A stretch of 64,000 bases of DNA from Novosphingobium sp. Gsoil 351 (GTDB taxonomy: Bacteria > Pseudomonadota > Alphaproteobacteria > Sphingomonadales > Sphingomonadaceae). The stretch's first letter is position 1. Every line of letters begins with the position of its first letter. Positions 51,207 to 64,000 of the stretch are shown piece by piece. The stretch is from contig NZ_CP046120.1 in the NCBI RefSeq assembly GCF_009707465.1, positions 828,501 through 892,500 on the forward strand, given 5' to 3'. A model generated the notes under the pieces. The model had not been told where the DNA came from, did not search any database, and saw only the letters and a list, made by a program, of their open reading frames with translations. A program made the translations under genes and the position numbers.

Positions 51207-52307
51207 TCACCACACCAGCGGTGCGTGCTCCAGTTGTGGCAAGACATGGCGCGCAAACAGGTCGGCCTCCGCCGCGTGAGGATAGCCGGAGAGAATGAAC
51301 GCCTCGATCCCCTCGGCCTGATAGGCGCGCAATTTGGCCAGTACCTGATCGGGATCACCGACGATCGCCGCGCCGCAGCCCGAGCGGGCACGCCCGATCC
51401 CGGTCCACAGGTTGTCTTCGACGAACCCGTCGCCATCCGCCGCGCCGCGCAACTCGGCCTGGCGCTGGACGCCGAAGTTCTTCGCATCGAGCGATGCCTC
51501 GCGGATCGCCCGGCCTTTTTCGTCGTCGAGCTTGGACACCAGCCGGTCGGCGTAGGCGCGCGCCTCGTCCTCGGTCTCGCGCACGATGACATGGACGCGG
51601 TAACCGAACTTGAGCGTGCGGCCGTGGTTCGCGGCGCGCGCGGTCATGTCGGCGATCGTCTCCCGCACCTTGTCCATCGTATCGGGCCACATCAGGTAGA
51701 CGTCGCAGCCTTCCGCCGCGCATTCACGCGCATCGGGGCTGAGGCCGCCGAAATACATCGGCGGGCACTTGCCCGAAATCGTCGTCATCCGCGGCGGATC
51801 GAGCTCGAGCTCATAGAACTCGCCCTTGTGGCTCAGATGCTCGCCGTTGAGCAGCGTCTTTACGATCTTGATGGTCTCAGTGGCGCGGGCATAGCGCGGG
51901 TGGCCGGGCATCGCTTGGCCCGGCATGTCCGAAGAGATGATGTTGACGTTGAGCCGTCCGCCGGTTCCCGCCGCGTTGGGACCGAGCACGCGGTCGAGCG
52001 TCGCGATGCGCCGCGCAAGCTGCGGCGGCCAGTCCTCGCCGATGCGTGTCGCCCACAGCAGCTTCATCCGCTGCAGGAACGGCGCGATCGCGGCGGCGAA
52101 CACCGTGGTGTCGAGACCGAGGCTATAGCCCGATGGCAGCAGAATATTGTCGAACCCGCCCTTTTCGGCAGTCAGCACGATGTTGCGGCAATGCTCCCAG
52201 CTCGACTTCAGCATCGGATCGGGGACGCCGAGGAATTCGTAATCGTCGTCGCACAGCGCGGAGAACCAGGCGACTTCGCACTGCCCGGTTTTTTGTTGAG
52301 CGCTCAT
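51207..52307 (-). CDS. SsuD-like FMN-dependent sulfonate monooxygenase (candidate sulfoquinovose monooxygenase)
   Basis: 366 residues. Bacterial-luciferase/SsuD fold with strong SsuD-type landmarks: GGFDNILLPSGYSLG, ARRIATLDRVL, GRLNVNIISSDMP, CPPMYFGGLSPDARE, RTLKFGYRVHVIVRETEDEA, DNLWTGIGRARSGCGAAIVG and EAFILSGYPHAAEA. SsuD uses reduced FMN and oxygen to split a C-S bond, releasing sulfite and an aldehyde. In Agrobacterium the homologue SmoC does this to sulfoquinovose. It is the last gene of an operon headed by the sulfoquinovosidase, which argues for the same substrate. No flavin reductase gene is in the window. Overlaps the reductase gene by 4 bases. Confidence 0.82.
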   Translation of the reverse strand: MSAQQKTGQCEVAWFSALCDDDYEFLGVPDPMLKSSWEHCRNIVLTAEKGGFDNILLPSGYSLGLDTTVFAAAIAPFLQRMKLLWATRIGEDWPPQLARRIATLDRVLGPNAAGTGGRLNVNIISSDMPGQAMPGHPRYARATETIKIVKTLLNGEHLSHKGEFYELELDPPRMTTISGKCPPMYFGGLSPDARECAAEGCDVYLMWPDTMDKVRETIADMTARAANHGRTLKFGYRVHVIVRETEDEARAYADRLVSKLDDEKGRAIREASLDAKNFGVQRQAELRGAADGDGFVEDNLWTGIGRARSGCGAAIVGDPDQVLAKLRAYQAEGIEAFILSGYPHAAEADLFARHVLPQLEHAPLVW

Positions 52308-53209
52308 GGCAATCCCTCCCCCCGCGCGGCGACCAGCACCGCGTACCATTCCTCGCGCGTCCAGCGGACGGCCAGTGCCTGCGCGGCCTCGGCGATGCGC
52401 TCCGCCTGTTGCGAACCGACGATCGGGACGATCCCCGCCGGGTGCGCCATCAGCCACGAATACGCGGCGACCGTGCGCGACACGCCGCGATCCCGCCCGA
52501 CTGCATCCAGCGCGGCGGCGACCGCTTTGGCCCGCGCGTCCTGCGGATCGGCCAGCCGCCCGCCGCCCAGCGGCGACCACGCCAGTGGGACAAGGCCCAG
52601 GACCATCGCCTGGTCGAGCTCGCCATTCTCGATCGGCTCGATCCGCAGCGGGCTGATTTCGGGCTGGGTCGCCGCCAGCGGTCGATCGAGGAACGCGGCC
52701 AGGGCGCCGATCTGGATCTGGGTGAAGTTGGAGACCCCGACCTCGCCGATCTTGCCCGCGGTGCGCGCCTGGTCGAGAGCCTTGGCGACTTCCTGCGGGT
52801 GGGCGAGGATGTCGGGCCGATGGATCTGCCACAGGTCGATCCGCTCGACTTTCAGCCGCCGCAGCGAGGCGTCGATCGCCTCGGCCAGATAGGCGGGACT
52901 CTGGTCGTAGGGCAGCGGCGGACGAATGCCGCCCTTGCTCGCCAGCACCATGCGGCTGCGCAGCCCTGGTTCGGCGGTCAACACTTCGCCCAGCAGCGCC
53001 TCGGCATCGCCGAACCCGCCGCTGCCGTCGAACCCATAGATATCGGCGGTGTCGAACAGGTCGATCCCGGCATCGAGCGCGGCGTGGACCAGCGCGGCGC
53101 CCTCCGCGCGGCTGCGCCCGGCAAAGCGCCACATCCCCCAGGCGATGGGGGCGATCTCGGGTCCTTGAAGACCGATGCGCACTTTGTGCGGGGCAGGCAG
53201 TTCACTCAT
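52304..53209 (-). CDS. Aldo/keto reductase (candidate SmoB-type reductase)
   Basis: 301 residues. AKR tetrad visible: Asp and Tyr in LFDTADIYGF, Lys in LASKGGIRPP and His in LWQIHRPDIL; VGVSNFTQIQIGALAAFLDR and PIVGSQQAERIAEAAQAL form the cofactor part. It resembles the YdhF branch. In the known sulfo-SMO pathway an AKR (SmoB) reduces the 6-oxo-glucose left after desulfonation to glucose; the position between LacI and monooxygenase genes fits that job (inference). It overlaps the LacI gene by 8 bases and the monooxygenase gene by 4. Confidence 0.85.
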   Translation of the reverse strand: MSELPAPHKVRIGLQGPEIAPIAWGMWRFAGRSRAEGAALVHAALDAGIDLFDTADIYGFDGSGGFGDAEALLGEVLTAEPGLRSRMVLASKGGIRPPLPYDQSPAYLAEAIDASLRRLKVERIDLWQIHRPDILAHPQEVAKALDQARTAGKIGEVGVSNFTQIQIGALAAFLDRPLAATQPEISPLRIEPIENGELDQAMVLGLVPLAWSPLGGGRLADPQDARAKAVAAALDAVGRDRGVSRTVAAYSWLMAHPAGIVPIVGSQQAERIAEAAQALAVRWTREEWYAVLVAARGEGLP

Positions 53210-54227
53210 GATGCGACAAGTCCCTTCGGGCAGGCGGGGCGACCGAGCCGCGCTCGACCAGGGTGTGGGGCAGGCGGCGGTGGCTGATGTCACCCCCGGC
53301 AATGAGGATTTCGGTGGCGGTGCGCGCCAGCTCGGCCATCGGCTGATGGATCGTGGTCAGCGGCGGCCAGACTGTGCGCGCCAGAGTGGTGTCGTCGAAC
53401 CCGGCGACCGACAGCGCGCCCGGCAGATCGATCCCGCGATCGTGCGCCACCGCCAGCACGCCCGCGGCCATGTCGTCGTTCGAGGCGAAGATCGCGGTCG
53501 GGCGGTCGGGTAGGTCGAGCAGCAGGTTGGCCGCCCTCACCCCGCTTTCGAAATCGAACTCGCCATCGCAGATCAGCCCCGGCTCGAAGGCGATGCCGAC
53601 CCGGTCGAGCGCGCGGCGATAGCCGAACAGCCGTTCGTCCGAAGCCATGTGGTTGGGGTGGCCCTTGACGAACCCGATCCGGCGATGCCCCGCGTTGATC
53701 AGGTGGGTGGTCATGTCGTCGGCCGCGAGCGCGTCGTCCATGAACACGCTGCTGGTCAGCGCGTGGTTGGTGCCGGGCGAGATGCGCACGAACGGGATGT
53801 CCATCACGTCTAGCGCGCGCAGCACCGGCTCGCAGTCGGTCACCGGCGAAGAAAGCACGATCCCGTCGACGTGGGTTTCGGAGACCAGCCCGCGGACCTC
53901 GTCGCCGACGCGAGGATCGGCTACATCGACCGGCTGGGCGAGCAGGCGGATGCCGCGACTGTGGCACGCCTCCCAGCAGCCCATCTGGATCTGGAAGGTG
54001 TAGTACGGGCTGTGGTTGTCGTAGATCAGCGCGATCTGGTTGGACTTCGCGCCCGAGAGGATGCGCGCTGCGATCGAGGGCCGGAACTCCAGATCGCGCA
54101 CCGCCTTTTCCACGCGCTCGCGGGTTTCGGTGCTGACGTAGGGATGGCCGTTGAGCACGCGGCTGACGGTCTTGACCGCCACCCCAGCCCGCGCAGCGAC
54201 ATCGCGGATGTTGGCGCGGTCGCTCAT
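53202..54227 (-). CDS. LacI-family transcriptional regulator
   Basis: 341 residues from MSDRANIRDVAARAGVAVKT; the much longer open frame upstream is a shadow of the hydrolase gene. The DNA-binding head has VAARAGVAVKTVSRVLNGHP and the hinge FRPSIAARILSG; the periplasmic-binding-like core includes IALIYDNHSPYYTFQIQMGC and AGFDDTTLARTVWPPLTTIH. It probably senses sulfoquinovose or a glycoside of it and controls the operon that contains it (inference). It overlaps the sulfoquinovosidase gene by 4 bases (ATGA). A candidate operator is described at 56280 and 61485. Confidence 0.92.
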   Translation of the reverse strand: MSDRANIRDVAARAGVAVKTVSRVLNGHPYVSTETRERVEKAVRDLEFRPSIAARILSGAKSNQIALIYDNHSPYYTFQIQMGCWEACHSRGIRLLAQPVDVADPRVGDEVRGLVSETHVDGIVLSSPVTDCEPVLRALDVMDIPFVRISPGTNHALTSSVFMDDALAADDMTTHLINAGHRRIGFVKGHPNHMASDERLFGYRRALDRVGIAFEPGLICDGEFDFESGVRAANLLLDLPDRPTAIFASNDDMAAGVLAVAHDRGIDLPGALSVAGFDDTTLARTVWPPLTTIHQPMAELARTATEILIAGGDISHRRLPHTLVERGSVAPPARRDLSHHE

Positions 54228-56218
54228 AGGGCAAGGGCCTCGGGAAGTTTGGCAAATAGCGCCGCAAACGCGCTGTCCGGCCGATAGAATACCGGCGGGT
54301 GATCGAGCGGCGCCGCGACCGTATGAGCCCCCGGGGCGAAGTCCTCGCCGCTCCAGACATGCCGCCACGGCAAGTCGCCGGGCAGGATCACCTTGCGCTC
54401 CACCGCCCCCTCCTTGATCACCGGCGCGACCAGCAGGTCGACGCCGTAGAGGTACTGGTCCTGCACCGTCCACAGCGCCGGATCGTTCGGGTAGTGCAGG
54501 AACAGCGCGCGTTGCGCAGGCAGTCCGCTGGCCTGCGCCTCGTCGCACAAGTGGCGGACGTAGGAGGCCAGGTGGGCGTGGACCCGGCTCCAGCGCGCGA
54601 AGCAGGCAAGCAGTTGCGGGGTGCTGTCGTATTGCAGGTTGTCGTCGGGGCGGTTGCCTTCGTGGCTGCGCATCACCGGGGCGAACGCGGCAAGCTCGCA
54701 CCACCGCATCATCAGCTCGGCGGTGCGGACATTGCCGTGGAGCGAGGTGTAGCCGCCGCAATCCGAATGGCTGTAGGCGTTGCCGAGCAGTCCCGCCGAC
54801 AGCGCCCCGGTAAGCACGGTACCGATCCCGTCGTGGCGGGTGAAATCGACCGACTGGTCGCCCGCCCACAGCAGCGGGCAATGCGCCTGAACCCCGCTGA
54901 ACCCGGCGCGCATGAAGAACACCGCGTCGCCGGTCTTCCCGCGTGATTCCAGCGCCATCGCGTTGACCTCGGCCCACAGCACCGGCCAACGGTTGTGCGC
55001 CTCCATCGGGTCGCTGGCGTCGGCCAGGCGGACGTCGGTGGGGAGATATTCGCCGAAGTCAGCCATCCATCCGGCGATGCCCATGTCGAGCATCTCTTGC
55101 CCCAGGATCCGTTCGGCGAACCAGCTGCGGGTCTCGGCGCGGGTGAAGTCGACCACCCCGGCCTGGAACTCTCCGAAATCAACGAGATAGACCTCGTCGC
55201 TATCCTGGTGCAGGCACAAGTGCCGGCCCTGTTTCGCTTCGAGGAACAGGCAGCCGTCATTGCAAAGATACGGGTTTGCGTAGGCAAGAAAACGGATGCC
55301 GCGCGCCGCCAGATCGGCGATCCCTTCGGGCAGATCGCGGTAGCGGCCCATGTTCCAGCGCCAGTCCCAGAACAGGCGGCGGCCGAAGCTGGTCTCGCGC
55401 ACCCCGGCCCAGTCCTCGCACCACAGCCCCGACACGGTGGTCCCCGCATCGATGAACTTTTCCAGCCGCATCAGGCTGTTAGCGCCATCCTTGAGGCCGA
55501 CGATCGCACCGCCTATCGCCCAGTCGGGCAAGGGCGGCTGACGGCCGAAGCGGGTCGATAGCTGACCGACGAGGTCCACCGGGCCGTCGCCGAGGAAGAA
55601 TTCGAAGCGCGCTTCGCCCGACCAGACCTCGATCTCGTGCCGGGCGGGATCGGTGAAATCGAGCGCGCTATAGGTGGTGCCGTCCAAGTGACAGGCGTAA
55701 TTCCGCGACGAAAGATAAGTCGGCTGGGGGTAGTTGGTCGTCCAAAAGTCGCCTCCCGCCATGCCTTGCGCATCCATCAGGCGGGTCAGTTCGGTGCTCT
55801 TGTCGCGCCCGACGCCGGGTTCGCTGGTCCACATCGGAAAGCGCCGCCCGGCCAGCGCGAGGTAGCTCATCTGCTCGCCCCCGCCCGAGACCTGCTCGCC
55901 CGGTTCGGCATGGAGGCGCAGCCAGATGCGATCGGCGTGCGGGGCCAGCGCGGTCACCGTCAGGGTGAGAGCCCGTGGATCGAAGCGCAATTCGGCGTTC
56001 CCGTCGAACCTTACGGTGCGTTCGTCGAGGGTGCACGCGCCCCCGTCGGCGCGAGCGTAAGGAGCATCTTCGATGCGGAAATTGCCGTGGTGCATCGTCA
56101 CGTCGGGCGCGCCGCGGGCGACGGACACCGCAGGACAGGAATCGCGATGACGCAGTACGGTCAAGCCTGCAATGCGCAGGTCGAACCCGTCCTCAACCGC
56201 GAAAAAGCCCGATTTCAC
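54224..56218 (-). CDS. GH31 sulfoquinovosidase (YihQ/SmoI type)
   Basis: 664 residues, cytoplasmic, GTG start. It releases sulfoquinovose from alpha-glycosides such as sulfoquinovosyl glycerol. GEQMSYLALAGRRFPMWTSE is the YihQ signature. Catalytic residues: nucleophile Asp387 (GWMADFGEYLPTD) and acid/base Asp454 (WAGDQSVDF). Sulfonate recognition: Lys243 (VGLKDG), Glu268 (WCEDW), Arg281 and Trp284 (GRRLFWDW), Tyr490 (GGYTS), i.e. the KERWY set of the Agrobacterium enzyme, with the same spacing 25-13-3; E. coli YihQ has Gln at the first two. General alpha-glucosidases lack this set. First gene of the operon; the next three genes overlap head to tail. Confidence 0.94.
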   Translation of the reverse strand: MKSGFFAVEDGFDLRIAGLTVLRHRDSCPAVSVARGAPDVTMHHGNFRIEDAPYARADGGACTLDERTVRFDGNAELRFDPRALTLTVTALAPHADRIWLRLHAEPGEQVSGGGEQMSYLALAGRRFPMWTSEPGVGRDKSTELTRLMDAQGMAGGDFWTTNYPQPTYLSSRNYACHLDGTTYSALDFTDPARHEIEVWSGEARFEFFLGDGPVDLVGQLSTRFGRQPPLPDWAIGGAIVGLKDGANSLMRLEKFIDAGTTVSGLWCEDWAGVRETSFGRRLFWDWRWNMGRYRDLPEGIADLAARGIRFLAYANPYLCNDGCLFLEAKQGRHLCLHQDSDEVYLVDFGEFQAGVVDFTRAETRSWFAERILGQEMLDMGIAGWMADFGEYLPTDVRLADASDPMEAHNRWPVLWAEVNAMALESRGKTGDAVFFMRAGFSGVQAHCPLLWAGDQSVDFTRHDGIGTVLTGALSAGLLGNAYSHSDCGGYTSLHGNVRTAELMMRWCELAAFAPVMRSHEGNRPDDNLQYDSTPQLLACFARWSRVHAHLASYVRHLCDEAQASGLPAQRALFLHYPNDPALWTVQDQYLYGVDLLVAPVIKEGAVERKVILPGDLPWRHVWSGEDFAPGAHTVAAPLDHPPVFYRPDSAFAALFAKLPEALAL

Positions 56219-56221
56219 CTT

Positions 56222-56253
56222 GCCGCAGACCTCTCAATGCCCCCGTCTGCGGC
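56222..56253 (-). promoter_or_regulatory. Leader hairpin at the sulfoquinovosidase ribosome site
   Basis: GCCGCAGAC (56222-56230) and GTCTGCGGC (56245-56253) form a perfect 9-bp stem ending 3 bases before the GTG start. In the mRNA (minus strand) the loop carries GAGAG, and the only ribosome-site-like GAGAGG spans loop and stem. It may limit translation, or serve as a protein-binding dyad. Confidence 0.45.
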
Positions 56254-56279
56254 ATTTTTACCGCACCGTCCGGACTTCG

Positions 56280-56300
56280 TATGACACCGCTTGACATATC
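56280..56300. promoter_or_regulatory. Candidate operator of the sulfoquinovose regulon, copy 1
   Basis: TATGACACCGC followed by TTGACATATC. Nineteen of 21 bases recur at 61485-61505. The motif has a direct TGACA repeat at 10-bp spacing and near-dyad TAT ends. It overlaps TTGACA (56291-56296), which with a weak CAATTC 17 bases on would make a promoter for the TonB receptor gene. It lies in the divergent gap between the sulfoquinovosidase and receptor genes, where a LacI-type repressor could control both. Confidence 0.6.
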
Positions 56301-56402
56301 GGCCCGTGCGGGTCAATTCAAGCCATCGAAAGCGGCCAGTCGCGCCGCTGCGGGTTTCGCTCGTGGGCGCCGAATGCCGGCGAGCGCTGTTGGGAGGATA
56401 CC

Positions 56403-58838
56403 ATGAAAGCCACGCTTCGCGCCGCCGCGCTCGCCGGAACCGTCTCGCTGATCGCGCTGGCTCAGCCCGCACTGGCCCAGGACGCCGCTGTCCCTGCCGA
56501 GGCTGAGGCCACTTCGCTCGACGAAGCCCCTCCCGGAGAGATCGTCGTCACCGCGCAAAAGCGCAGCGAGCGGCTCCAGGACGTGCCGGTCGCAGTCTCG
56601 GTGTTATCCGGCGAGCAACTCGGGTCGGCCTCCCGCCCAAGCGTGGAAAGCGCCGCACAACAGGTTCCCGCGCTCAACTTCCTCAAGTCGGGCACGACGC
56701 TGAACCAGACGATCTTCCTGCGCGGGGTGGGCACCGCCAGCTTCTCGATCGCGGGTGAGCCGTCGGTCTCGACCGTGGTCGACGGGGTCGTCTACGCCCG
56801 GTCGGGCGAGGCCTTCAGCGACCTGGTCGACATCGACCGGCTCGAGGTGCTGCGCGGACCCCAGGGCACGCTATTCGGCAAGAACGCCAGTGCCGGCGTG
56901 CTCAACATCACTACCAAGATGCCGAAGGTCGGCGAATTTGGCGGCACGCTCGAGGCCAGCTATTTCGACCGCAAAGAATACCGCGGCAAGGCTGCGGTCA
57001 ACGTGCCATTGGGCGAGAACGCCGCCGGCCGGTTCACCGCGTTCTACGGTAACTACGCCGGCAACATCCGCAATCTGACCGCGGGCAAGCGTGTCAATGG
57101 CTATGAGCACTACGGCGCGCGGGCGCAGTTCCTCTACGAGCCGTCGGACGCGCTGCGGCTCTACGCGACCGCCGATTATCACAAGAACGACGACGATTGC
57201 TGCGCCGACATCATCGCCACCGGTCCGCTGACCGGGGCCGGGGCGCCGACCACCAACCTGGCGTTCAACGTGCTGCCGACGCCGCGCGGGGCGAAGACCC
57301 GGCGGATCACTCAGGATCTGATCACGGCCACCAAGGAAAGAGGCTGGGGCGTATCGCTCCAGGCCGATGTCGGGGTGGGCACGCATACGCTGACCAGCAT
57401 CACCGCCTATCGCGACTGGGACAATACCGAGATCCGCGATGGCGACTGGCTCGACCGCGCCTATGTCGGGTTCAACCAGCTGCACGATAATGGCCCGCAA
57501 CGCACCCACACGCTAACGCAGGAACTGCGGCTGACCTCGCCCGCCAACCAGGTGATCAGCTATGTGCTGGGGGGCTACTATTCGAACGCCTATTCCCGCC
57601 GCGTGTTCACCCGCAACGACGTGGTCTGCACCGCGGTTACCGGTGCGCCGACCAACGTGCTGATCCCGTGCGGCAGCCCCAACGCCAACCCCTCGACCAC
57701 GCCTTCGGGCACCGCCGATTTCGGCTCGCGCTTCAAGAACTACGCCGCCTTCGGCCAGGCAACGCTCAACGCCACCGACACCTTTCGTCTGATCGGGGGC
57801 TTGCGCTATTCGAAGGACGACCTTTCGGTATTCCACAAGCGCGTGGCGACCGGCCTGGCCGTCAGCGGCGGGCTACCTCAGGCAGCGCCGGGGATTCAGC
57901 CTAATTTCGACCAAGGGGTCTACGACCGTTATCTCGCCCTGGTCGCGACGGGCGTTTCGCCCACCACTGCCGCGGCGCAAGCGGTAACCGCGTCGAACGG
58001 CGTGGCATTCCGGACCAAGACCACCGCGGACAACCTTTCGGGCAAGATTTCCGCGCAGTTCGATTTCACCCGCGATCACATGGGCTACCTCTCGTATACC
58101 CGCGGCTACAAGGGGCCGGCCTACAACATCTTCTTCAACCTCACCGCCACTGGCACCAACCGGATTTCGCCTGAGACTTCCGACGCGTTCGAGATCGGAC
58201 TCAAGAACACGCTGCTCGACGGGCGGATGACGCTGAACCTGGCGCTGTTCCGTGCTGACTATCATAACTTCCAGGCCAACAACCCCGACCTAGTCGCGGG
58301 CGTCGTGGTGACCCGCTTCACAAACGCGGGTGAGGTGTCGACCCGCGGAATCGAAGCCGACATGAACTGGCGCCCGTTCGACGACTTCACCCTCAACGGC
58401 GGGGTCGCCTACACCAAGGCGCGGGTCGACCGGTTCAACGCGCCCGCAGGCGCCGCGACAATTCCCCCTCGCACGCCGCTGGGCTATGCGCCCAAGTGGA
58501 AGGGATCGTTGGCGGCCGATTACCGCTGGCGCACTGGCGGCGCGATCGACGTGTGGCTGGGGGCATCGACCAACTTCCAGTCGAGCCAACTTTCGCTGTT
58601 CGCGGCCAACGCGGTCCAGCGCCAGTTGGGGACTATTCCGAAATACGCGCTGGTCAACGCCCAGATCGGCTTCGGCGATCCCGACGATACCTGGCGGATC
58701 ACCGCGCAAGTCCGCAATCTGACCGACAAGGAATATGCCGCCGCGATCATCAACGGCGGGCCCGGCGGCAGCTACCGCTACCAGATCCCGCGCGACGCGG
58801 ACCGCTATATCGGGGTGACGGGGCGGCTGAACTTCTAG
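56403..58838 (+). CDS. TonB-dependent outer membrane receptor
   Basis: 811 residues. Signal peptide MKATLRAAALAGTVSLIALA...ALAQ, a TonB box GEIVVTAQKRSERLQDVPVA, plug domain (about 55-170: FLRGVGTASFSIAGEPSVST, RLEVLRGPQGTLFGKNASAG, LNITTKMPK) and a 22-stranded barrel ending YIGVTGRLNF with terminal Phe. Receptors of this class in sphingomonads take up sugars and aromatic glycosides as well as iron. Its divergent position to the sulfoquinovosidase operon suggests that it imports sulfoquinovosyl glycosides (inference). A GC hairpin follows the stop. Confidence 0.92.
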   Translation: MKATLRAAALAGTVSLIALAQPALAQDAAVPAEAEATSLDEAPPGEIVVTAQKRSERLQDVPVAVSVLSGEQLGSASRPSVESAAQQVPALNFLKSGTTLNQTIFLRGVGTASFSIAGEPSVSTVVDGVVYARSGEAFSDLVDIDRLEVLRGPQGTLFGKNASAGVLNITTKMPKVGEFGGTLEASYFDRKEYRGKAAVNVPLGENAAGRFTAFYGNYAGNIRNLTAGKRVNGYEHYGARAQFLYEPSDALRLYATADYHKNDDDCCADIIATGPLTGAGAPTTNLAFNVLPTPRGAKTRRITQDLITATKERGWGVSLQADVGVGTHTLTSITAYRDWDNTEIRDGDWLDRAYVGFNQLHDNGPQRTHTLTQELRLTSPANQVISYVLGGYYSNAYSRRVFTRNDVVCTAVTGAPTNVLIPCGSPNANPSTTPSGTADFGSRFKNYAAFGQATLNATDTFRLIGGLRYSKDDLSVFHKRVATGLAVSGGLPQAAPGIQPNFDQGVYDRYLALVATGVSPTTAAAQAVTASNGVAFRTKTTADNLSGKISAQFDFTRDHMGYLSYTRGYKGPAYNIFFNLTATGTNRISPETSDAFEIGLKNTLLDGRMTLNLALFRADYHNFQANNPDLVAGVVVTRFTNAGEVSTRGIEADMNWRPFDDFTLNGGVAYTKARVDRFNAPAGAATIPPRTPLGYAPKWKGSLAADYRWRTGGAIDVWLGASTNFQSSQLSLFAANAVQRQLGTIPKYALVNAQIGFGDPDDTWRITAQVRNLTDKEYAAAIINGGPGGSYRYQIPRDADRYIGVTGRLNF

Positions 58839-58858
58839 GTATTTAAGAGCTTGAACGA

Positions 58859-58886
58859 CGGCCGCGGAGGGAGACTTCCGCGGCCG
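58859..58886. terminator. Hairpin between convergent genes
   Basis: CGGCCGCGGA - GGGAGACT-type loop - TCCGCGGCCG: a 10-bp perfect GC stem, without a clear U-tract on either strand. It lies between the receptor stop and the convergent SDR stop and probably acts as a shared terminator. Confidence 0.55.
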
Positions 58887-58911
58887 ATTCATGCGTGGTG
58901 GCACGCGGTTC

Positions 58912-59691
58912 CTAACGCCCTCCGGTGACGTAGAGGCACTGCCCCGTCACCCAGCCTGCCGCGGGCGAGGCCATATAGACGACGGCGGCGGCGATATCCT
59001 CGGGGTCGCCGTAGCGGCCGAGCGGGATGCCGATCGCCGCGAGCAATTTTTCTCGCTTTTCCGGGGTGTCGGTGCCCATGCACTCATCGAAATTCTCGGT
59101 CGGGATCGGGCCCGGGGCGACCGCGTTGACGCGGATCGCAGGCGCGAGCTCGACCGAAAGTGTGCTGGTCAGGCTGTTCACCGCCGCCTTGGCAGCACCA
59201 TAAGGCCCGTTCTTGACCTGCGCGCCGAACGCCGATCGCGACGAGATGTTGATGATCGACCCGCCGCCCGCGCCTTCGGCCATGTGCCGTGCCGCCACGG
59301 TCGCGCCTAGCCACACCGCCTTGAGATTGAGCGCCATCTGCGCGTCGAAGTTGTCCTCGGACGTGCGCGTCAGATAGCGCGGCGTCGCATCGGGGATGCC
59401 GCCCGCGTTGTTGACCCAGATCGTCAACTTGCCGAATTCGGCGACAGTCGCGGCGGCCAGCTTTTCCAGCGCTTCGCTCGAGGTGGCGTCGGTCGCCAAC
59501 GGCAGGGCGCGACGGCCGAGCCGGCGAATCTCCGCCGCGACCGCATCGAGATCGGCCTGGGTGCGCGAGGCCAGCGCGACGTCGGCCCCAGCCTCTGCCA
59601 GCCCGATCGCGATCGCCCGCCCGATCCCCTTACCCGCCCCGGTCACCACCGCGACCTCGCCATCGAGCCTGAACCTGTCGAGAATACCCAT
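58912..59691 (-). CDS. SDR dehydrogenase (candidate sugar 1-dehydrogenase)
   Basis: 259 residues from the ATG at 59691, with GAGGA about 9 bases upstream. Classical SDR: VAVVTGAGKGIGRAIAIGLA, WVNNAGG, catalytic Ser in IINISSRSAFGAQ, Tyr-x3-Lys in GPYGAAKAAVNSL, and end motif VTGQCLYVTGGR. It is of the glucose/gluconate dehydrogenase-like group. In the sulfo-Entner-Doudoroff pathway an SDR oxidises sulfoquinovose at C1, so this could be an alternative entry into the pathway or serve the sugar product. Substrate is not proven by the sequence. Confidence 0.87.
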   Translation of the reverse strand: MGILDRFRLDGEVAVVTGAGKGIGRAIAIGLAEAGADVALASRTQADLDAVAAEIRRLGRRALPLATDATSSEALEKLAAATVAEFGKLTIWVNNAGGIPDATPRYLTRTSEDNFDAQMALNLKAVWLGATVAARHMAEGAGGGSIINISSRSAFGAQVKNGPYGAAKAAVNSLTSTLSVELAPAIRVNAVAPGPIPTENFDECMGTDTPEKREKLLAAIGIPLGRYGDPEDIAAAVVYMASPAAGWVTGQCLYVTGGR

Positions 59692-59832
59692 ACTACTTGT
59701 CCTCGCGGCCATGTGGATTGCGATCGGGATGGAGGATGGCGGGCCGGTTTACCCGGCGACACTAGCCGATGCGCTAGGGCAGTGGCGGGAGGGCAACTTG
59801 AAGGTACCGCAGGCTCCACTCATATCGCACCC

Positions 59833-60138
59833 ATGGTTTGGGACCTCGGCAAGGCGATGCGGAAGAAGTAGGAGTTCGAGACCGCTCGACTCCTCGACTT
59901 CGAATTCCGCCAGCGTGCCCGGACGGCCCGCCTTCTCGCCCGAGCACTTGGGCTCGAGGAGAGCTCCTTGGCCCAGGATACCGTGGTGAAAGACGACGAC
60001 GCAATCATCGGACTTGCCGCGGCAAGATCGGGGCAGAGCGTCGACGAGGTCCAGGCGCAATTCTGGAAATGCAGTTCGCGGGCCCGTCGTGAGATCATCG
60101 AGGAACGCGGCGATCCCACGCCGTATCGGCTGGGTTAA
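59833..60138 (+). pseudogene. Small hypothetical gene with in-frame amber stop
   Basis: One frame reads MVWDLGKAMRKK, then TAG at 59869-59871, then EFETARLLDFEFRQRARTAR and on through DTVVKDDDAIIGLAAARSGQ to REIIEERGDPTPYRLG and TAA: 101 sense codons apart from the stop. The charged, helical, low-Gly composition looks like real protein, unlike the neighbouring frames. CAG (Gln) to TAG would be the simplest single change. Either the gene is decayed, the base is wrong, or translation starts after the stop at a TTG or GTG. No known domain recognised. The rest of the gap 59692-60146 shows nothing else. Confidence 0.5.
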
Positions 60139-60146
60139 GCGCGGCT

Positions 60147-61400
60147 TCAGGCGGTGGTCTCGTCCTCCGCGAAGATCCGCGGCACCAGCAGGTGGATCCA
60201 CGCCAGCGCAATGAGATACGCGAACGCCGCGACCCAGAACAGCGGCGCGTAGCCATACCCGCCGGTCAGCAGCCGTCCGGTCGCCTCCTGAATGCCGAAG
60301 CCGGCCACGTTGCCGGCGATCGCGCCGATCGCCATCACCGTCGCCACGCGCTGGGCAGGCACCGCGTCGGCCGCGAAGCCGAAGATGTTGGTGGAAAAGC
60401 CCTGGTGCGCGAACAGCGCCATGCCGATGATCGCGGCGGCGGTCCACGCGCTGTCGGCGGTCAGCGCCAGCGGAATCGGCAGTATGATCAGCGCGTAGAG
60501 CAGCATGCCCAGCTTGCGCGCGGCGTTGACCGAGCGGCCCCCGCCCAGCAGCACGCCGAACAATTTGCCCGCGGTCAGCGCACCGAGCGCGGCAAGGCTG
60601 AACGCCAGCGCGGTCGGGCCGACGAGTTGGGACTGCGACAGGTCGAACACTTTGTGGAACAGGTCGGGCAGCCAGAACGTGAAGAACCACCAGAACATGT
60701 CGGTGATCGCCTTGGCCCCGGCGATCGCCCAAGTCTTGCGATCGGCCAGCGCGGCGCGATAACCGCCGGTACCGGTCGCGGGAGCGGCGCGCGGGACCGG
60801 GATCAGCCGCTGCGTGCCGAAAATCCAGAACGCAAGCCAGATGAAGCCGAGCGCCCCGGTGACGAGAAACGCCGCCTTCCACCCGAACGCCACCGCGAAC
60901 GGCACCACCGTCAGCGGGGCGATGATGTTGCCCAGGTTCGGCGCGGTGTTGACGATTCCCGCCGCCATCGTGCGGCGCTTGAGCGGCAGGAACTGCGCGG
61001 CGGCCTTGACCGCGGCAGGGGTGTTGACCGCCTCGGCCGCGACCAACACCACGCGCGCGGTGACGAACTGGGTGACCGTGCCGGCCACCGCGTGGGCCAT
61101 CCCGGCAACGCTCCACACCACTACCGCCGCGCCATAGGCGATGCGCACGCCAAACCGGTCGATCAGCCAGCCGACGAACAGCAGGGCTGCGGCGGCGGCG
61201 AGCTGACTGGCCGAAGCGAAATGGGCGAATTCGGCGTCGCCCCAGCCGTATTCGGCGGAAATCGTCGGCTTGAGCAGCGACAGCACCTGGCGATCGACAT
61301 AGTTGATGATCGTGCCGAAGAAGAGCAGCGCGATCAGGAGGTTGCGTGAACGCTCCAGCCCCGCATCGGCGGCGTCTCCGGGTCTGACAGTCTGCGCCAA
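60147..61400 (-). CDS. MFS transporter, ACS/hexuronate-like (candidate sulfoquinovose importer)
   Basis: 417 residues from a TTG at 61400 preceded by GAGGAGAG at a good distance; a GTG at 61451 is the longer alternative. Twelve helices: LLIALLFFGTIINYVDRQVL opens the anion:cation symporter type, with GWLIDRFGVRIAYG after helix 2, and a long central loop. ACS members carry hexuronates and other acidic sugars, so an anionic sulfosugar is a fitting cargo (inference). Divergent from the exporter gene; the shared gap has the operator copy 2 at its far end. Confidence 0.85.
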   Translation of the reverse strand: MAQTVRPGDAADAGLERSRNLLIALLFFGTIINYVDRQVLSLLKPTISAEYGWGDAEFAHFASASQLAAAAALLFVGWLIDRFGVRIAYGAAVVVWSVAGMAHAVAGTVTQFVTARVVLVAAEAVNTPAAVKAAAQFLPLKRRTMAAGIVNTAPNLGNIIAPLTVVPFAVAFGWKAAFLVTGALGFIWLAFWIFGTQRLIPVPRAAPATGTGGYRAALADRKTWAIAGAKAITDMFWWFFTFWLPDLFHKVFDLSQSQLVGPTALAFSLAALGALTAGKLFGVLLGGGRSVNAARKLGMLLYALIILPIPLALTADSAWTAAAIIGMALFAHQGFSTNIFGFAADAVPAQRVATVMAIGAIAGNVAGFGIQEATGRLLTGGYGYAPLFWVAAFAYLIALAWIHLLVPRIFAEDETTA

Positions 61401-61484
61401 ATCCGCTCTCCTCGCCCGCAGCGCCTTGTCCCGGCGCTTGTTCGCTTGCACGGTAGCGCCTCGTCGAGATAAGGGAAGCGGGAA

Positions 61485-61505
61485 TATGACACCGCAGGAC
61501 ATATC
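61485..61505. promoter_or_regulatory. Candidate operator of the sulfoquinovose regulon, copy 2
   Basis: TATGACACCGC followed by AGGACATATC; differs from copy 1 at two positions only. It overlaps the ATG of the YeiH-like gene (61486), so a bound repressor would block initiation directly, and it lies 85 bp from the divergent MFS start. Confidence 0.55.
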
Positions 61506-62568
61506 CGCCTATCCCGCCCACGCCGGCGACCTATTCGGCGAGCTCCACCTCGGCGGGGCCGAGCCGGTCGCCGAGAACCGCGATCCGCTGTGGCCCGGCC
61601 TCGCGGTGTGCGGCACCGCCAGCCTTGCCGCCGCCTGGCTAGCCGAGCACTACCGCTTTCCGATCATCCTCCTCGGCCTGCTGGTTGGCCTGTCGCTGAG
61701 CTTCCTCGGGACCGACCCCAAGATGCACCGCGGGCTCGATTTCGCCAGCCGCACCTTCCTGCGGATCGGCATCGTCGTGCTCGGATTCCAGGTGACCTTC
61801 GCCCAGATCGGCGCGCTCGGGCCGGTGCCGTTCATGGCGCTGGTCGTGGTGATGGCCGCCGCGTTCGGGGCGGCGCTGATCGGTGCGCGGCTGGTCGGGC
61901 AGGATCGCTACGCGGGGATCCTGGCGGGCGGCGCGACCGCGATCTGCGGCGCCTCGGCGGCGCTGGCGCTGTACGGGGTTATCGGCAAGCACCGTCTCAG
62001 CCAGGCCCAGTTCGCGCTGACGCTCGTCGGGGTCAGCCTGGCGAGCGCGCTGGCGATGTCGCTCTATCCGGTGCTGGCGGCCGAGCTGGGGCTGAACGAC
62101 ACGCAGGCCGGGTTCCTGATCGGCGCATCGATCCACGACGTCGCGCAGGCGATCGGCGGAGGCTATGCGTTTTCCGACGCCGCCGGGAGCCACGCGACGA
62201 TCGTCAAGCTCGCCCGCGTAGCGCTGCTTGCCCCGGTGGTCGCGCTGGTCTCGCTGTGGATCGGGCACGGCGACCAAGGGGGCGACGGGCAGCGGCGCGC
62301 GCTGTGGCGGCGGATGGCGCTGCCGTGGTTCATCGTCGCGTTCCTCGCCACGGTCACGCTCAATAGCGTGGTCGCGGTCCCGCCTGCGTGGTCGGCATCG
62401 CTGCTGACGCTGTCCAAGGGCCTGCTGCTGGTCGCGGTGACTGCCACCGCGATGCGTTCGCGGCTCGAACTGCTGCGCGAGGAAGGCTGGCGCGCGACGA
62501 TCCCGACGCTGGCCGCGACCCTAGCCTCGTTCGCCGCGGCGCTGGCCTTCGCCAAGTGGCTGGTGTGA
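61486..62568 (+). CDS. YeiH-family (UPF0324) putative sulfate/sulfite exporter
   Basis: 360 residues from an ATG with GGGAAG upstream. A ~40-residue soluble lead precedes about ten membrane helices: PIILLGLLVGLSLSFLG, LDFASRTFLRIGIVVLGFQV, GGATAICGASAALALYGVIG and GFLIGASIHDVAQAIGGGYA are the family landmarks. The family is annotated as putative sulfate exporter. Placed beside a desulfonating monooxygenase it is the natural candidate to remove sulfite or sulfate from the cell. It overlaps glpD by 4 bases (GTGA). Confidence 0.88.
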   Translation: MTPQDISAYPAHAGDLFGELHLGGAEPVAENRDPLWPGLAVCGTASLAAAWLAEHYRFPIILLGLLVGLSLSFLGTDPKMHRGLDFASRTFLRIGIVVLGFQVTFAQIGALGPVPFMALVVVMAAAFGAALIGARLVGQDRYAGILAGGATAICGASAALALYGVIGKHRLSQAQFALTLVGVSLASALAMSLYPVLAAELGLNDTQAGFLIGASIHDVAQAIGGGYAFSDAAGSHATIVKLARVALLAPVVALVSLWIGHGDQGGDGQRRALWRRMALPWFIVAFLATVTLNSVVAVPPAWSASLLTLSKGLLLVAVTATAMRSRLELLREEGWRATIPTLAATLASFAAALAFAKWLV

Positions 62569-64000
62569 GCGAACCCTACGACATCGCGGTGATCGGCGGC
62601 GGGATCAACGGCGCCGGGATCGCCCGCGATGCCGCGGGGCGCGGGGCCAGAGTGCTGCTGCTCGAACGCGGCGATCTCGCGCGCGGCACCTCGTCGGCCT
62701 CGACCAAGCTGATCCACGGCGGCTTGCGCTATCTCGAGCACTACGAATTCGGCCTGGTCCGCGAGGCCCTGTCCGAGCGCGAGAAGCTGTGGGGCATCGC
62801 CCCACACGTGATCTGGCCACTGCGCTTCGTGCTGCCCTATCGCAAAGGCTTGCGCCCCAAATGGCTGCTGCGCGCCGGTCTGTTCCTCTATGACCACATC
62901 GGCGGGCGCAAGGCGCTGCCCGCGACGCGGACGATCGATCTGGCCAAGCACGCCGCAGGCGCGCCGCTCAAATCCGGCCTCCACACCGCGTTCGTCTATT
63001 CGGACGGCTGGGTCGACGATGCCCGGCTCGTGGTGCTCAACGCGCGCGACGCCGCCAACCGCGGGGCGACGGTGCGGACCCGCTGCGAGGTCACCGAGTT
63101 ACGCCGTGAGGCCGGCGCCTGGACGATTCTGGCGGGCGGCGAGACCTTCCGCGCGGGCGCGGTAGTCAACGCGGCGGGACCGGCGGTGCTCGACCTTCTC
63201 CACCGCGCGGGCGTGCCCCCACACCAGAAGATGCGCCTGGTGCGCGGCTCGCACATCGTGGTGCGCAAGCTGTTCGACCACGATTTCGCCTATTTCTTCC
63301 AGCTTCCCGACGGGCGGATCTTCTTCGCGATCCCGTATGAGCGCGACTTCACCCTGATCGGGACCACCGACGCGGACCATCACGGGGCGCTCGACGATCT
63401 TGCGGCCAGCGCTGACGAGATCGCTTATCTGTGCGCCGGGGTGAACGAGTACTTCGCCCAGGCCATCACGCCCGCCGACGTGGCGTGGTCCTATTCGGGC
63501 GTCAGGCCGCTGATGGACGACGGCCGCGGCCGGCCCGAGGCGGCGACCCGCGGCTACAGCTTCGCGCTCGACGGCGGCGACGGGGTCCCGCCGCTGCTGT
63601 CGGTATTCGGCGGCAAGATCACCACCTACCGCACGTTGGCCGAATCCGCGGTAGCCCGGTTGCAACCGCATGTGGCGGCGCTGCAGGGCGGCGACTGGAG
63701 CGATGGCGAGCCGTTGCCGGGCGGAGACTTCCCCAAGCAGACCGCCGCCTCGCTGACCGCCGCGCTGGCCCGCGACTACCCTTTCCTCGGGCCCGACCAG
63801 GCGCTGCGCCTGACCCGCGCCTATGGCACGCTGGCCCGCACGATCCTCGGCGACGCCAAGGCCCTCGCCGGCCTGGGAACGGACTTCGGGCACGGCCTCA
63901 GCGAGCGCGAGGCCGCTTATCTGATCGCCGCCGAATGGGCGAGGACTGCCGACGACGTGCTGTGGCGCCGGACCAAGCTGGGGTTGCGGTTTTCGGTGGA
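62565..64000 (+). CDS. glpD: Aerobic glycerol-3-phosphate dehydrogenase (3' end outside window)
   Basis: 478 residues are present, from a GTG overlapping the exporter stop; the usual length is about 500, so little is missing. FAD-binding DIAVIGGGINGAGIARDAAG, then SSASTKLIHGGLRYLEHYEF, the active-site stretch VRGSHIVVRKLF, FFAIPYERDFTLIGTTDADH and SVFGGKITTYRTLAESAVAR. It oxidises glycerol 3-phosphate to dihydroxyacetone phosphate at the membrane. Its coupling to the exporter suggests use of glycerol freed from sulfoquinovosyl glycerol. Confidence 0.95.
   Translation, partial: MSEPYDIAVIGGGINGAGIARDAAGRGARVLLLERGDLARGTSSASTKLIHGGLRYLEHYEFGLVREALSEREKLWGIAPHVIWPLRFVLPYRKGLRPKWLLRAGLFLYDHIGGRKALPATRTIDLAKHAAGAPLKSGLHTAFVYSDGWVDDARLVVLNARDAANRGATVRTRCEVTELRREAGAWTILAGGETFRAGAVVNAAGPAVLDLLHRAGVPPHQKMRLVRGSHIVVRKLFDHDFAYFFQLPDGRIFFAIPYERDFTLIGTTDADHHGALDDLAASADEIAYLCAGVNEYFAQAITPADVAWSYSGVRPLMDDGRGRPEAATRGYSFALDGGDGVPPLLSVFGGKITTYRTLAESAVARLQPHVAALQGGDWSDGEPLPGGDFPKQTAASLTAALARDYPFLGPDQALRLTRAYGTLARTILGDAKALAGLGTDFGHGLSEREAAYLIAAEWARTADDVLWRRTKLGLRFSV

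Follow-up and report, generated by a model that had tools for sequence, protein, structure and literature searches.

Background

Sulfoquinovose (SQ) is the sugar of plant sulfolipids and carries sulfur. The sulfo-ASMO pathway of its breakdown has been reported in the sphingomonad Novosphingobium aromaticivorans DSM 12444, in a cluster with SquD and SquF and without SsuE, and also in Agrobacterium tumefaciens (PMC9594981, PMC12890257). The N. aromaticivorans pathway was found by mining gene clusters with the GH31 sulfoquinovosidase (SQase) YihQ (PMC9594981, PMC12890257). SmoB together with SmoC has served to recognise the pathway, also called sulfo-SMO, and Novosphingobium was both dominant and labelled in mangrove water incubated with 13C-SQ, with sulfo-SMO predicted in its reference genomes (PMC13372026). 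A flavin reductase is usual in such clusters and not universal, as there is none in the N. aromaticivorans cluster (PMC9594981). SQases of family GH188 also occur in sulfo-SMO clusters, a protein of Sphingomonas sp. Leaf17 among them (PMC10755693). Here we analyse a nine-gene locus at positions 51207-64000 of a 64,000-nucleotide stretch of Novosphingobium sp. Gsoil 351 (contig NZ_CP046120.1, positions 828,501 to 892,500), hereafter the window. The original prediction, made from the letters of this stretch, took the locus for an SQ utilisation locus of sulfo-SMO type and for a candidate undescribed variant of the system.

Enzymes of the locus

The locus is very probably a sulfo-SMO (sulfo-ASMO) locus of a Novosphingobium type, judging from its sequence and its neighbourhood in relatives. 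The sulfo-SMO assignment of the original prediction is borne out by best matches of SQase, SmoC and SmoB type and by synteny in 80 loci. The chemistry is not new: the pathway is already reported in N. aromaticivorans (PMC9594981, PMC12890257), which has the same combination of a YihQ-type GH31 SQase, an SsuD-like SQ monooxygenase and an aldo/keto reductase (AKR) in a sphingomonad. All nine genes that had been named are open frames of the families given to them, by frame and profile check in the window (Table 1). The genes for GH31, LacI, AKR and the SsuD-like monooxygenase run on the minus strand from 56218 to 51207 with overlaps of 4, 8 and 4 bases, which agrees with the predicted four-gene overlapping operon, and the TonB receptor frame is divergent from them, again as predicted.

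The GH31 protein keeps the pocket of an SQase. Its best solved chains are 5ohy (807 bits), which we take to be Agrobacterium SmoI, the SQase, and 5ohs (806 bits). Chains 8r56, 6pnr, 5aed and 5aee follow with 586-665 bits, and the remaining chains among the matches listed have at most 132 bits. The profile NF007746 gives 850.6 bits against a cut-off of 553. K243, E268, R281, W284 and Y490 align with 5ohy residues 245, 270, 283, 286 and 491, positions that we take to be the sulfonate-binding ones, so the predicted sulfonate-binding residues are in place. D454 aligns with residue 455, a position occupied by D in 5ohy and by N in 5ohs; the numbering offset is +2, and then +1 past a one-residue gap. 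Both pocket and acid/base residues are kept in this alignment, and no signal peptide is seen by eye. We propose a cytoplasmic SQase-type enzyme, putative in its activity.

The monooxygenase and the AKR also match the Agrobacterium enzymes best. The monooxygenase has 373 bits with 7olf and 366 bits with 7oh2, presumably SmoC, versus 206 and 193 bits with SsuD-type chains, and with the SsuD model TIGR03565 it reaches only 247 of the 518 bits required. The AKR has 168 and 167 bits with 7bbz and 7bby, presumably SmoB (Agrobacterium/Rhizobium), and 143 bits with the next chain. As this gap is small, the AKR assignment leans on position, its gene adjoining and overlapping that of the monooxygenase. 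The locus thereby appears to encode the parts that mark the sulfo-SMO or sulfo-ASMO pathway, i.e. a SmoC/SquD-type SQ monooxygenase (SMO), an adjoining SmoB/SquF-type AKR and, where an SQase of GH31 or GH188 is expected, a GH31 protein with the SQase pocket.

The smo cluster of A. tumefaciens (SmoA, SmoB, SmoC and SmoI) carries the same three enzyme steps and provides the nearest solved structures to all three. It differs in using an ATP-binding cassette (ABC) importer (PMC9594981), whereas the window has a TonB receptor and a major facilitator superfamily (MFS) permease. The window also has no flavin reductase inside it, and GlpD and YeiH stand alongside the enzymes.

We propose the following working of the locus. 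The TonB receptor and the MFS permease would import sulfoquinovosyl glycerol (SQGro), perhaps also SQ, and the cytoplasmic GH31 enzyme would split SQGro into SQ and glycerol. The monooxygenase, dependent on reduced flavin mononucleotide (FMNH2), would turn SQ into sulfite and 6-dehydroglucose, which the AKR would reduce to glucose. Glycerol would pass through a glycerol kinase encoded elsewhere in the genome and then GlpD. YeiH would export sulfite or sulfate, with a SorA-type sulfite dehydrogenase encoded elsewhere. Genes for a flavin reductase and RibB probably come next after glpD, a short way beyond the window.

Conservation among relatives

Homology and the synteny of 80 loci give good support to catabolism of sulfo-SMO type with a TonB receptor and MFS permease, YeiH and GlpD. 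Genome contigs were scanned with the monooxygenase and the best 80 of 577 confirmed stretches were used, so the sample leans to close relatives. Matches were counted by tblastn at identity of at least 38% and coverage over 30%, SorA and SorB without an identity bound. By title, 76 of the loci come from Sphingomonadales and 4 give only a higher rank, so the gene set does recur in the order where the original prediction had proposed a neighbourhood search. The 80 loci hold SMO in 80, AKR in 80, LacI in 77, GH31 in 73, TonB receptor in 70, MFS in 60, YeiH in 53, GlpD in 50, flavin mononucleotide (FMN) reductase in 19, RibB in 18, GlpK in 15, SorA in 8 and the short-chain dehydrogenase/reductase (SDR) in 1, many loci being cut by contig ends. 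Sixteen loci extend for under 9.3 kb on the side of the receptor and were set aside. In the other 64 we found AKR in 64, LacI in 62, GH31 in 64 and the receptor in 64; on either side, MFS occurs in 58, YeiH in 53 and GlpD in 45 (on the receptor side alone, MFS in 56 and YeiH in 51). SMO (76-86% identity) and LacI (66-87%) vary least, the receptor (41-73%) and MFS (39-83%) most, their lower bound being set by the filter. Of 199 family genomes drawn evenly, 50 have a close SMO (E <=1e-100), the own genome among them; the two other genomes of the same genus in this draw have none.

The locus on plasmid pLA3 of Novosphingobium pentaromativorans US6-1 (L128; L numbers are our labels for loci) has the receptor, GH31, LacI, AKR, SMO and GlpD in the same order and an exact copy of the operator-like element described below. 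It differs in being plasmid-borne and in having GlpK after GlpD, and MFS and YeiH have no match in the stretch read. In the Novosphingobium loci L050 and L061, SMO, AKR and a GH31 of 53% identity stand in another arrangement, without this LacI.

An operator-like element shared by two promoter regions

A short element lies before both arms of the locus. It came from a symmetric Gibbs search of GH31/TonB intergenic regions (34 of 67), where the fixed form is TGACACCGCTTGACA; no consistent signal came from scanning the intergenic regions for near-perfect 18-base palindromes. With at most one mismatch, TGACACCGNNNGACA stands at the GH31/TonB promoter region in all 68 loci that have a divergent GH31/receptor pair and LacI (62 exact). 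Of the 53 loci with YeiH, 51 have another copy close to the yeiH start, which is exact in 49. Both copies are exact in the window, at 56282 and 61487.

Exact copies are concentrated before locus genes. The 80 loci (1.48 Mb) hold 117 in 63 loci, 116 of them before locus genes, versus 0.19 copies on average and 5 at most in a permuted-motif control (n=200); as the loci are relatives, the 117 copies are not independent events. The own genome has three exact copies, two in the window and one in another frame, and with at most one mismatch 13 copies versus 4 for a reversed control. The third exact copy, at 3315004, lies within the frame of an oxidoreductase, some 320 bases ahead of a further TonB receptor, and is probably due to chance. 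No exact copy was found in L050 and L061, both without this LacI, nor in Sphingomonas paeninsulae, whose LacI is 63% identical.

From the position of the element, from L050 and L061 and from S. paeninsulae we infer that the local LacI binds TGACACCGNNNGACA as a putative operator. With the element before both GH31/TonB and yeiH, a single LacI regulon is predicted to cover uptake, hydrolysis, desulfonation and the export of sulfite. Bound to TGACACCGNNNGACA, LacI would keep the two divergent promoter regions repressed, and binding of SQ or an SQ glycoside would lift the repression. The conservation of the element in the GH31/TonB and yeiH regions is new here.

Transport, flavin, glycerol and sulfite genes

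The TonB receptor has a signal peptide by eye, and its nearest solved chains are siderophore and pesticin receptors with at most 92 bits, so only its position points to its cargo. We propose that it serves outer-membrane sulfosugar uptake and that the MFS permease, whose nearest solved relative is a D-galactonate transporter (79 bits), serves uptake across the inner membrane. No ABC transporter family was found among the nine genes at 51207-64000, so an importer of the Agrobacterium type is absent from them. The transport set had been predicted to differ from the known one, and this holds for TonB and MFS; YeiH beside SMO is not unique, as Rhizobium sp. SL42 has it too (43% identity). Among the papers listed for sulfoquinovose with TonB, no title deals with SQ uptake, and TonB is not mentioned in the searched text of PMC9594981, PMC10755693 or PMC12421959, the last of which concerns another sulfosugar.

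YeiH and GlpD could serve the side products. The YeiH protein carries its family domain (PF03601, 189 bits, cut-off 24.5), and we propose that it exports sulfite or sulfate. Deletion of yeiH makes Salmonella sulfite-sensitive, the gene being needed for sulfite resistance (PMC12880088). GlpD scores 705 bits with NF009906 (cut-off 352), and its frame overlaps that of yeiH by 4 bases.

The flavin reductase, with RibB, probably lies just past glpD. The original prediction had SmoA missing from the window; this is correct for the window itself, and 14 of 15 relatives suggest a reductase just outside it. For 20 of the 80 loci the genomes were searched for PF03358, 15 of them with GlpD at the locus edge, and in 14 of these a hit lies 415-607 bases past that edge. 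The order GlpD, FMN reductase, RibB holds in 14 of 14 fetched stretches, and SorA with a small SorB-like gene comes next after RibB in 9 of the 14. Some relatives have FMN reductase and RibB behind SMO, or behind a GlpD that lies on the side of SMO. In 22 loci GlpD comes after SMO and more than 3 kb of sequence lies beyond; FMN reductase and RibB are present in 12 of these, GlpK in 14, and neither reductase nor kinase in 2. The own genome has four PF01613 hits and four PF03358 hits (three over the cut-off), all outside the window. Of the four PF03358 loci (L091-L094), L091 alone gave a match, at 31%, to the FMN reductase of the relatives. None of the flavin reductases was singled out as SmoA, and any might serve in trans.

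A glycerol kinase and a SorA-type sulfite dehydrogenase are encoded elsewhere in the own genome, both over their cut-offs. In L012 the kinase beyond RibB was scored as a glycerol kinase with 571.7 of 590.35 (under the cut-off) and 563 of 498 (over). A SorA-type sulfite dehydrogenase with a small SorB-like gene stands beside SMO or behind RibB in L049 (11154-12745), L055, L067, L071, L080, L085 and L109-L117. Sulfite oxidation appears to be built into the cluster in those relatives.

The SDR was predicted to follow the receptor together with MFS, YeiH and glpD. All four are present, but conservation across the loci does not extend to the SDR. It was rejected as a pathway enzyme, with matches over half its length in 4 of the 80 loci at 30-40% identity. 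Its best solved relatives are hydroxysteroid dehydrogenases, no operator-like site was found before its gene, and it is probably a passenger. The stretch 58912-60146, i.e. the SDR plus some 450 bases lacking any clear gene between receptor and MFS, is absent from relatives and is probably an insertion. At the other end, a bordering cell-wall hydrolase was found by tblastn in none of the 80 loci, and 51207 was therefore taken as the locus border.

Table 1. Features of the proposed sulfo-SMO locus in the window
Feature	Position	Strand	Support
FMNH2-dependent sulfonate monooxygenase (SmoC/SquD-like), 366 aa	51207..52307	-	SMO-type structures top matches; 80/80 loci
Aldo/keto reductase (SmoB/SquF-like), 301 aa	52304..53209	-	PF00248; 7bbz/7bby top matches; 80/80 loci
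LacI-family regulator, 341 aa	53202..54227	-	PF00356 + PF13377; 77/80 loci
GH31 sulfoquinovosidase (putative), 664 aa, GTG start	54224..56218	-	5ohy match, NF007746; 73/80 loci
Operator-like element TGACACCGCTTGACA between divergent GH31 operon and TonB receptor	56282..56296	+	Conserved motif; TTGACA box towards receptor inside
TonB-dependent receptor, 811 aa, divergent from GH31 operon	56403..58838	+	PF00593 + PF07715; 64/64 loci with enough flank
SDR oxidoreductase, probably passenger	58912..59691	-	Poorly kept in relatives
MFS permease, start codon uncertain	60147..~61400	-	PF07690; 58/64 loci
YeiH-family membrane protein, proposed sulfite/sulfate exporter	61486..62568	+	PF03601; 53/64 loci
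Second operator-like element TGACACCGCAGGACA, on yeiH start codon, MFS/YeiH divergent region	61487..61501	+	Equivalent site in 51/53 YeiH loci
GlpD, glycerol-3-phosphate dehydrogenase, truncated at window end	62565..64000	+	NF009906; 45/64 loci

Alternative interpretations

Several observations weigh against a sulfo-SMO locus working as proposed. The PDB titles differ from the roles we assign: 7olf is titled 'Methanesulfonate sulfonatase', 7bbz 'Aryl-alcohol dehydrogenase' and 5ohy 'Alpha-glucosidase yihQ'. YeiH falls under the cut-off of TIGR00698 (120.5 of 232.6 bits). Searches with PF01613 and PF03358 found no flavin reductase within the window, and the exception among the 15 loci with GlpD at the edge, L083, has no reductase after GlpD, which is only a fragment there. 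Among the 53 loci with YeiH, the operator site before yeiH was not found in L016 and L073. Neither a GH31 match nor an AKR match reaching 38% identity turned up in the six rhizobial SMO loci read. Finally, the element is not a clean palindrome.

This last point would also fit a reading in which TGACACCGNNNGACA is part of a promoter, or the site of another regulator, and not the operator of the local LacI. The GH31/TonB site lends itself to that reading as well: its central triplet is CTT in 66 of 68 loci and ends in TT in all 68, which completes a TTGACA box towards the receptor, the consensus -35 box. At the yeiH site, however, the triplet is free (15 kinds in 51 sites) with TGACACCG and GACA fixed, and a -35 box does not explain such a site. 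The absence of an exact copy from L050 and L061, which lack this LacI, and from S. paeninsulae likewise argues for the local LacI. We therefore consider the promoter reading unlikely, and prefer a LacI operator.

Another hypothesis could be that the locus serves some other sulfonated sugar or glycoside, e.g. another 6-sulfo-hexoside, with the specificity of GH31 and SMO shifted. The wide variation of receptor and permease between loci would suit this. So would the rhizobial SMOs: a plasmid collection holds seven that are 67-69% identical to that of the window, and the six read (H11 left out) lack GH31 and a close AKR, so the substrate cannot be told from SMO likeness by itself. The call of SQ as substrate thus rests mostly on GH31 and AKR combined with SMO. 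These three stay together across loci, the pocket residues of an SQase are retained in the GH31 protein, whose scores with SQase-type chains far exceed those with other GH31 chains, and GlpD and GlpK fit a glycerol aglycone. We judge a different sulfosugar quite improbable and keep to SQ glycosides. It is hardly credible that ordinary alpha-glucoside and alkanesulfonate scavenging genes are neighbours by chance: generic family models do name an alpha-glucosidase and a luciferase-like monooxygenase, but the operon overlaps, the same order recurs in many sphingomonad loci and the chain matches are specifically of SQase and SMO type.

SMO relatives in other settings

The rhizobial SMO loci read are L127 (1-10056, a plasmid of Rhizobium sp. 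WSM4643), L132, L133, L134, L136 and L137. In L127 the SMO stands beside LacI, an ABC importer, a lactonase, an L-arabinonate dehydratase and an aldolase; SMOs of this type perhaps belong to a route that oxidises 6-dehydroglucose, or act on another sulfosugar. L136 has a 27% AKR match about 2 kb from SMO.

A Gfo/Idh/MocA oxidoreductase takes the place of GH31 beside AKR and SMO on plasmids of Sphingomonas paeninsulae (L130, 6780-11062), Sphingobium yanoikuyae (L131, 7986-11059) and Rhizobium sp. SL42 (L135, 7957-12009). It is possibly a GH188 SQase. These clusters resemble the window in SMO and AKR, and the two sphingomonads also in receptor and MFS; they differ in having no GH31 match and no exact operator copy. 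The SL42 cluster has the YeiH-type protein noted above, a tripartite ATP-independent periplasmic (TRAP) importer and an annotated flavin reductase. The S. yanoikuyae cluster carries an annotated 'putative sulfate exporter', yet shows no match to the YeiH of the window. An SMO relative of 47% identity lies on a plasmid of Spirosoma oryzicola, of the Bacteroidota (L129, 2405-13378), near SusC/SusD-type proteins, an amino acid permease, a cytochrome c and an annotated soxC sulfite dehydrogenase.

Conclusions

Judged from its sequence, the locus is real and functional-looking, encodes a known pathway and is common in sphingomonads. Its chemistry is known; the switch, the uptake genes and the sulfite-disposal genes look little described. 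No title or abstract start in the open-access sulfoquinovose literature, among the matches listed, has this gene set or element, most subscription papers being beyond the reach of that literature.

We lean, by a little, towards the view that Sphingomonadales carry a self-contained LacI regulon for SQ glycosides, switched by TNTGACACCGNNNGACANA. In it, a TonB receptor and an MFS permease, a new class of SQ-glycoside uptake, would feed GH31, SMO and AKR, with an FMN reductase and RibB of its own, a glycerol branch through GlpD and GlpK, and sulfite disposal through YeiH and often SorAB. Attention is best given to the element common to both promoter regions, to the receptor and permease, and to the accessory genes for flavin, glycerol and sulfite. 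The conserved gene set and the element make it testable which receptor and permease carry the sulfosugar, what turns the genes on, what the source of reduced flavin is and how the cell disposes of toxic sulfite.

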